Made by a program: the position numbers and the translations under genes
The notes under the pieces: generated by a model
Seen by the model: the letters and a program-made list of their open reading frames with translations, nothing else
Told to the model about the DNA's origin: nothing
Database searches by the model: none
Shown here: piece after piece, positions 2,525-3,809 of the stretch
How positions within the stretch are numbered: the stretch's first letter is position 1
Layout of the letters: each line of letters starts with the position of its first letter
Source: Flavobacteriaceae bacterium TMED48
Lineage (GTDB): Bacteria; Pseudomonadota; Gammaproteobacteria; Pseudomonadales; Porticoccaceae
Assembly: GCA_905181995.1 (NCBI GenBank)
Contig: CAJIZO010000024.1
Span: 1-34,751, forward strand
DNA length: 34,751 nucleotides
Direction: 5' to 3'

Positions 2525-2938
2525 TTGAAATTCTTTTTATTTATCGGCGAACAGTGGCTCCTTGTCAGCATCTTATTGGTACTTGTATACGTATACATAT
2601 TGTATGAGCGAGATAGAGGCGGCAAATCGATCGGGCAAAATGAACTGGTTGCGTTGTTAAATTCGGAACACGCCGCGCTGGTTGATGTGCGTCCCAGCGG
2701 AGACTTCACCGATGGCCACATTCATGGCGCCATCAGCATACCTCACACCAAACTGTCTTCTAGACATGTTGAATTGGTCAGAGAAAAAGACAAGGTCTTG
2801 GTGGTGGTAGACCAGTACGGACAACACGCCGGAAGCGCCGGCAAACTGCTCTCGTCGGAAGGTTACAATGTGCGTCGATTAAGTGGCGGCATGGTGGAGT
2901 GGCGAGGTCAAAATTTACCCGTGGTTAAAGGATCGTAA
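2525..2938 (+). CDS. yibN: YibN-like membrane-anchored rhodanese-fold protein, no cysteine
   Basis: The 137-residue product has one N-terminal membrane helix (about residues 9-27, WLLVSILLVLVYVYIL). A rhodanese domain follows, with VDVRPSGDFTDGHIHGAISIP (the CH2A-type motif) and LSGGMVEWRGQNLP at the end. The active-site loop reads VVVDQYGQHAG: Asp96 stands where a sulfurtransferase has its catalytic Cys, and the protein has no Cys anywhere. It cannot work as a normal rhodanese. From memory, E. coli YibN also has Asp at this position, so the loss may be general to the family. E. coli YibN has been reported to bind the YidC insertase. The start is a TTG with no strong Shine-Dalgarno; no in-frame alternative exists upstream. 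grxC and secB follow, as in many gammaproteobacteria. Confidence 0.85.
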   Translation: MKFFLFIGEQWLLVSILLVLVYVYILYERDRGGKSIGQNELVALLNSEHAALVDVRPSGDFTDGHIHGAISIPHTKLSSRHVELVREKDKVLVVVDQYGQHAGSAGKLLSSEGYNVRRLSGGMVEWRGQNLPVVKGS

Positions 2939-2971: not shown

Positions 2972-3229
2972 ATGTCAGGAACGGTAATATACGGAACGCG
3001 AGCGGGGCCTTTTTGCATCGCGGCTAGAAAGTTACTCAGGGAGCGGGGCATCGAATTTGAAGATGTCACTCTGGATGGAGATGTTGCCCTTAGGAACGAC
3101 ATTCGCTCCCAAAGTAAGCGCGATACAGTTCCCCAGATTTGGATTGCCGACCAGCATGTGGGCGGCTACAGTGATCTGCGCGCGCTCGATATGCGCGGCG
3201 AGCTTGAGTCTTTGGCCAACCCATCATAA
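2972..3229 (+). CDS. grxC: GrxC-type glutaredoxin with degenerate active site (GPFC)
   Basis: The 85-residue product aligns along its whole length with glutaredoxin 3: an IYGT strand, the active-site loop, DVTLDGD, the cis-proline motif TVPQIWI, and the glutathione-binding GGYSDL. The active site, normally CPYC, reads G12-P-F-C15. The first Cys, the nucleophile of both mono- and dithiol mechanisms, is a Gly encoded GGG. C15, the dispensable resolving residue, is the only Cys left. Classical glutathione-disulfide oxidoreductase activity is therefore unlikely. Glutathione binding could persist, because the cis-Pro and GG motifs are intact. ATAGGA precedes the ATG with good spacing. The frame is clean, so this is not an obvious pseudogene. 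Confidence 0.9.
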   Translation: MSGTVIYGTRAGPFCIAARKLLRERGIEFEDVTLDGDVALRNDIRSQSKRDTVPQIWIADQHVGGYSDLRALDMRGELESLANPS

Positions 3230-3290: not shown

Positions 3291-3809
3291 ATGTCAGACG
3301 AGACTCAAGGCCCAGCGACGGCAACCACGGAAGGCAGCGAAAAACCGGCAGCGAGTTTCTCGGCACAGCGCATCTACTTAAAAGATGTGTCATTCGAAAC
3401 TCCAAAGGGGCCCGAACTATTCCAAAAGCAGTGGAACCCGAAGGTCAACCAAGATTTAAGTACGCATACCGCTAGGCTCGATGAGAGCATTTTTGAAGTG
3501 TCTTTGAGAATTACCATCACCGTGAAAGACAATGAAGATACGCTCTATCTGGTCGAAGTGGAACAAGCTGGGATCTTTAAGATCGAGGGCCTGGATGATA
3601 AGCAACTCGCACAGGTGCTCAATACCACCTGCGCAGCTATGCTCTTTCCCTACGCCAGAGAAGCCATCGACAACGTCCTCACTAAGGGCTCATTACCTCC
3701 GCTAATGATACCTCCGGTCAATTTTGACGGCCTTTTTGCTTCGGCAATGGCTGCCAACCAGGCCCGAGAAGAACAGAGCAGCAACGAGAGCAACGATACC
3801 CAGCACTAG
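3291..3809 (+). CDS. secB: SecB protein-export chaperone
   Basis: SecB is a tetrameric cytoplasmic chaperone that holds preproteins unfolded and delivers them to SecA. The 172-residue product shows the family core: FSAQRIYLKDVSFETPKGP, a WNPKVNQDLSTHT strand, VEVEQAGIFKIEGL, and the LFPYAREAIDNVLTKGSLPPLMIPPVNFDGLF block. Length is slightly above the usual 150-165 because of an N-terminal Ala/Thr/Glu-rich leader of about 20 residues and a Glu/Asn/Ser-rich tail. AGAGGA precedes the ATG by 6 bases. It is the third gene of yibN-grxC-secB and converges on ntrC with a 16-base gap between stops, which holds no hairpin terminator. Confidence 0.97.
   Translation: MSDETQGPATATTEGSEKPAASFSAQRIYLKDVSFETPKGPELFQKQWNPKVNQDLSTHTARLDESIFEVSLRITITVKDNEDTLYLVEVEQAGIFKIEGLDDKQLAQVLNTTCAAMLFPYAREAIDNVLTKGSLPPLMIPPVNFDGLFASAMAANQAREEQSSNESNDTQH

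Follow-up and report, generated by a model that had tools for sequence, protein, structure and literature searches.

A GrxC orthologue with glycine at the position of the nucleophilic cysteine in a genus of the Porticoccaceae

The grxC gene was examined in a window of 34,751 nucleotides, the whole of the stretch analysed (contig CAJIZO010000024.1, positions 1 to 34,751 of the forward strand, assembly GCA_905181995.1, Flavobacteriaceae bacterium TMED48, placed in the Porticoccaceae). The gene encodes an orthologue of glutaredoxin 3 (GrxC) in which the nucleophilic Cys12 of the active site is replaced by Gly, and it is under strong purifying selection. Since the gene is strongly protected by selection despite the loss of Cys12, the protein is probably kept for a job other than textbook glutaredoxin chemistry. 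The interpretation that we favour, with somewhat better than even confidence, is that the nucleophilic cysteine was lost early in one genus of the Porticoccaceae and that GrxC is now kept there as a pseudo-oxidoreductase.

Active site, family and predicted fold

The open reading frame at 2972-3229 (+) encodes MSGTVIYGTRAGPFCIAARKLL at its start, and the translated GrxC protein begins MSGTVIYGTRAGPFC. Its features are:

2972..3229, + strand: grxC orthologue of 85 amino acids (aa) with the active site GPFC, Gly standing in place of the nucleophile Cys12; ATG 2972, TAA 3229
3005..3007, + strand: codon 12, GGG, Gly
3014..3016, + strand: codon 15, TGC, Cys, the sole cysteine of the protein
3125..3133, + strand: Thr52-Val53-Pro54, cis-proline loop of the glutathione (GSH) site, intact
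3161..3166, + strand: Gly64-Gly65 of the GSH-binding motif, intact

The GPFC site with GGG at codon 12, pointed out in a first-pass annotation of this DNA, was read directly from 2972-3229 (+); Phe14 is also present, and TGC and TGT are both two changes away from GGG. Selenocysteine at position 12 was ruled out, as the codon is GGG and not TGA. Glutaredoxin (PF00462) was the sole Pfam domain over cut-off in the protein (52.5 bits vs. a cut-off of 22.9), and the nearest NCBIfam family, the equivalog TIGR02181 (glutaredoxin 3), was matched with 82.6 bits, slightly under its curated cut-off of 90. The closest solved structure by sequence was found to be E. coli Grx3, with an E value of 4e-18. The AlphaFold2 model, built from a five-sequence alignment, is that of a normal glutaredoxin (predicted local distance difference test score of 89.5) and places Cys15 within the opening turns of helix 13-24. 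Its top Foldseek matches in the PDB were glutaredoxins, GSH-bound ones included, and E. coli Grx3 was matched with a template modelling score of 0.85-0.90. Among the traits of GrxC, the N-terminal nucleophilic Cys of the CPYC/CPFC site is replaced by Gly12, here and in three congeneric genomes, and the second active-site Cys (Cys15, in 4/4 species), the TVP cis-proline loop, the GG motif and, in the predicted model, the thioredoxin/glutaredoxin fold are present. The sequence motifs, the model and the structure matches bear out the earlier statement that the rest of the fold is intact. Other classes did not fit: the site is GPFC rather than the CGFS of monothiol glutaredoxins (GrxD), and a separate CGFS GrxD is encoded in the same genome; the UXX-star selenoprotein model NF041212 gave 24.9 vs. 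66 bits; and a single domain of 85 aa without a C-terminal glutathione S-transferase (GST) domain does not correspond to a YfcG-type GST.

Position 12, selection and locus history in the genus

Position 12 was evaluated across the family and the order in a set of 110 GrxC-type sequences. Cys was found in 106 of them, and the four exceptions are the Gly12 proteins of four species of one genus: the window's genome (G000) and the Porticoccaceae assemblies G001, G008 and G004, whose GrxC proteins are 96%, 83% and 69% identical to that of the window, respectively. Gly12 is present in 4/4 same-genus genomes that retain grxC at the locus, within GPFC in G001 and G008 and within GAFC in G004. The four Gly codons all differ: GGG in G000, and GGA, GGC and GGT among its three congeners. 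This argues against an artefact common to the assemblies and shows that the silent bases turned over and Gly stayed. The genomes are draft assemblies, which would favour an error of sequencing or assembly, or misalignment of the motif, but the agreement of the assemblies of four species, with four different Gly codons, rules this out and leaves it a negligible chance; the same agreement upholds the earlier argument against a single sequencing error. Similar cases were sought with codon patterns over 392 order and 369 class genomes, which returned the window's gene and a few matches that were unlike glutaredoxin by eye; the patterns were strict (fixed spacing, exact TVPQ and T-initial codons at position 12 excluded), so that similar cases may be missed. 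No description of a nucleophile-less GrxC was found by title or abstract in literature searches of open-licence papers.

The ratio of nonsynonymous to synonymous substitution rates (dN/dS) of grxC between G000 and G001 was found to be 0.041 (NG86), 0.066 (YN00) and 0.059 (maximum likelihood), far from the value of 1 that the annotation had named as a sign of decay. These values are similar to those of secB (0.035-0.057) and lie below those of yibN (0.071-0.128) and of trpH. Codons differing by a single base between the two genes comprise 17 silent and 2 replacement changes (binomial p = 5e-9 against neutrality), and in deeper pairs silent sites are near or at saturation with dN < 0.25. The low dN/dS and the 17 vs. 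2 codon changes disfavour pseudogene decay, and the purifying selection, together with the conserved synteny, sustains the view that a clean frame in a conserved operon denotes a functional gene. At the near-invariant positions of the family, C12 is the sole fixed replacement in the Gly12 group (position 59 is variable as well, one of the four proteins having Gly there), and T9, C15, D35, R41, S48, TVPQIW, H62 and GG are retained. Changes common to the group include Thr4, Ala/Asn11, Arg45 and Lys49. The segment SKRDTVP was considered as a new binding patch and dropped, since a CPYC relative (L038) carries it too and the segment is therefore not tied to Gly12.

In a species tree from YibN, SecB, TrpH and NtrC, G000, G001 and G008 lie beside G005, G009 and G012 (support 84/86), and G004 and the group of G002, G003, G010, G011 and G013 fall at the base of the genus, where their placement lacks support. 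The GrxC tree unites the four Gly12 proteins. In G003, G005, G009, G010, G012 and G013 secB comes next after yibN and the space between the two could not accommodate grxC, and the loci of G002 and G011, which are cut short upstream, agree with grxC loss as far as they extend (loci without grxC: L067-L070, L072 and L076-L078). The simplest reading of these sequences would be a single C12G change early in the genus followed by at least two losses of grxC, on a species tree whose base is without resolution. G005, G007 and G009 carry a divergent CPFC glutaredoxin elsewhere in the genome (L130, L131 and L132); all three are without grxC adjoining secB, and secB was not found in G007. Identities of up to 60-63% to other families and of up to 50-56% to Porticoccaceae GrxCs suggest that these glutaredoxins were acquired from outside, possibly as a re-acquisition. 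The one from G005 scores 106.5 bits on TIGR02181.

Proposed role and rival explanations

Without Cys12 the GrxC-S-SG intermediate would not form, and hence neither would standard mono- or dithiol glutaredoxin chemistry be expected. Reduction of cytoplasmic thiols would be carried by TrxA (CGPC), GrxD and GSH, and GrxC would act by binding, either GSH in the intact groove or a protein partner via the active-site face, with Cys15 retained as a packing residue or a lone regulatory thiol. A binding role is suggested by the predicted model, which has the ordinary glutaredoxin form and whose matches include GSH-bound structures. A protein partner may come from the YibN/SecB export neighbourhood, which is a reasonable first guess as to its source. 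The non-redox role advanced in the annotation thus fits retention by selection independently of Cys12 (dN/dS ~0.04-0.07), its support being selection and not biochemistry.

The alternative in the annotation, that another glutaredoxin had taken over, was not borne out. A PF00462 search revealed no CxxC glutaredoxin in the drafts of G000 (88% complete), G001 (94%) and G008 (74%); CGFS GrxD was found in all four Gly12 genomes, and SspA/GST-like proteins were also returned. G004 (97% complete) encodes a CPYC domain of 83 aa of the GST-N/Grx2 type, which is not a GrxC (L064:1276-1740 (+), contig C37; ETCPYCHKVRHFL) and was found only in this genome within the genus; its best Pfam matches were GST N-terminal domains and its best NCBIfam match was glutaredoxin 2, below cut-off. 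The absence of a CxxC glutaredoxin therefore holds for 3/4 Gly12 genomes. TrxA (CGPC) is present in all four. Glutathione loss was ruled out for the genus: gshA was found in 13/14 genomes, all four Gly12 genomes included, gshB in 12/14, with G001, G004 and G008 among them, and a glutathione reductase (GR)-like flavoenzyme, below the TIGR01421 cut-off, in all four Gly12 genomes. In G000 (88% complete) gshB was not found.

A conserved Grx-like protein of 120 aa without Cys at the active-site region (GMAQNPAPK) was also observed in G000 (L003:1441-1803 (-), contig C15), G001, G004 and many genomes of another Porticoccaceae genus (relatives L159-L178), with matches to glutaredoxin models only below NCBIfam cut-offs. 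No link to Gly12 is claimed, as the protein is common too in the genus with a Cys-bearing GrxC.

Several other explanations were weighed. In a reversed monothiol (GxxC) glutaredoxin, Cys15 would be the working thiol and this helix Cys would form the mixed disulfide with glutathione. Cys15 is the sole Cys and is kept in 4/4 species, though a resolving Cys should be dispensable without Cys12, and the small or polar residues at positions 11 (A/N) and 12 (G) could open access to it. Against this, it lies in the first turns of the model's helix, where one would expect it to be buried and to have a high pKa, and its neighbours A18, L21 and L22 show the same degree of conservation, so that packing alone could explain its retention; the explanation is considered unlikely. 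Catalysis by bound GSH, which would itself provide the thiolate, would agree with the intact TVP and GG motifs, with gshA and the GR-like flavoenzyme in 4/4 genomes and gshB in 3/4, and with the glutaredoxin-like activity of YfcG, which has Thr at that position (PMC2757866), but the 85-aa protein is devoid of a GST C-terminal domain and Gly offers no side chain by which the sulfur of GSH could be held, which makes such catalysis quite improbable. A relaxed relic, that is, a copy on its way out in a genus no longer in need of GrxC, would be in line with grxC not being seen adjoining secB in G002, G003, G005 and G009-G013 and with the minimum of two losses that the best species tree implies. The dN/dS of ~0.04-0.07, the rejection of neutrality (p = 5e-9), the other near-invariant residues kept across saturated silent distances and the intact frames in four species largely refute this explanation, to which we assign very little probability.

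Retention of GrxC as a pseudo-oxidoreductase is favoured over these explanations, and some points weigh against it. Both the binding role and the inactivity of Gly12 GrxC are inferred from sequence and a predicted model, and the conservation of Cys15 could reflect residual thiol chemistry. Residues of the GSH site contribute to fold stability as well, and hence their retention is no proof of GSH binding. Two other groups of the genus are without grxC at the yibN-secB locus, and any such role would therefore be one that some sister species can do without. The Gly12 genomes are drafts of 74-97% completeness, so that a second glutaredoxin may have gone unseen in them. In addition, the rate of GrxC in the Gly12 group, ~0.5-1.1 times that of YibN and SecB and thus no higher than in other GrxCs (pairs at similar distance: medians of 1.35-1.43), speaks for retention but was obtained from five pairs only.

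The yibN-secB neighbourhood and known systems

The window's grxC is adjoined upstream by yibN and downstream by secB, all co-directional:

2525..2938, + strand: yibN, rhodanese-like protein with a membrane anchor; its rhodanese loop is VVVDQYGQ
3291..3809, + strand: secB, export chaperone

Both neighbours were found nearby at 104/110 loci, all four Gly12 loci included. The rhodanese loop of YibN has Asp in nearly all Porticoccaceae loci examined (Cys in the exceptions L113 and L121) and Cys at this position in 20/24 other order members examined. E. coli YibN co-purifies with SecYEG (PMC8082313) and was reported as a partner of YidC, its gene sharing an operon with grxC, secB and gpsA (PMC12282094). 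An old, redox-independent role of GrxC in protein export or membrane insertion, exposed here by the loss of thiol chemistry, is conceivable, if on balance rather unlikely; under this scenario YibN would first have come to carry Asp for the rhodanese-loop Cys in the family, and the GrxC nucleophile would have been lost later in the genus.

The N-terminal active-site Cys is the defining feature of glutaredoxins, and Gly12 GrxC is a natural separation-of-function variant in this respect. Selection comparable to that on secB suggests that GrxC can be worth keeping without thiol chemistry, and the variant offers a way into the question of why grxC is placed between yibN and secB. It also serves as a warning, in that annotation by domain match would label it an active glutaredoxin.

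E. coli GrxC (PDB 1fov and 3grx) belongs to the same family (42-43% identity, E 4e-18), with the fold, TVP and GG in common, and its gene also lies with yibN and secB (PMC12282094); it has CPYC, whereas Gly12 GrxC is without a thiolate nucleophile at that site. YfcG of E. coli, a member of the GST superfamily, differs in being a two-domain GST with Thr rather than Gly. The plant class III (CC-type) glutaredoxins ROXY6-9/CEPDs share the glutaredoxin fold and a role independent of the first active-site Cys, and ROXY9 with an SCLC active site still activates target genes in vivo (PMC11887855). Unlike the bacterial Gly12 GrxC, the ROXYs are eukaryotic proteins that retain the Cys and target TGA transcription factors. 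In the WAxxC thioredoxin-like domain of yeast Grx3/4 and PICOT, the first Cys is replaced by a small residue and the second Cys is kept, as in Gly12 GrxC. This domain, the WAXXC motif of which is mentioned for multidomain monothiol glutaredoxins (PMC6282196), differs in being of the thioredoxin type, eukaryotic and fused to CGFS domains, whereas the protein described here is a single-domain bacterial GrxC.
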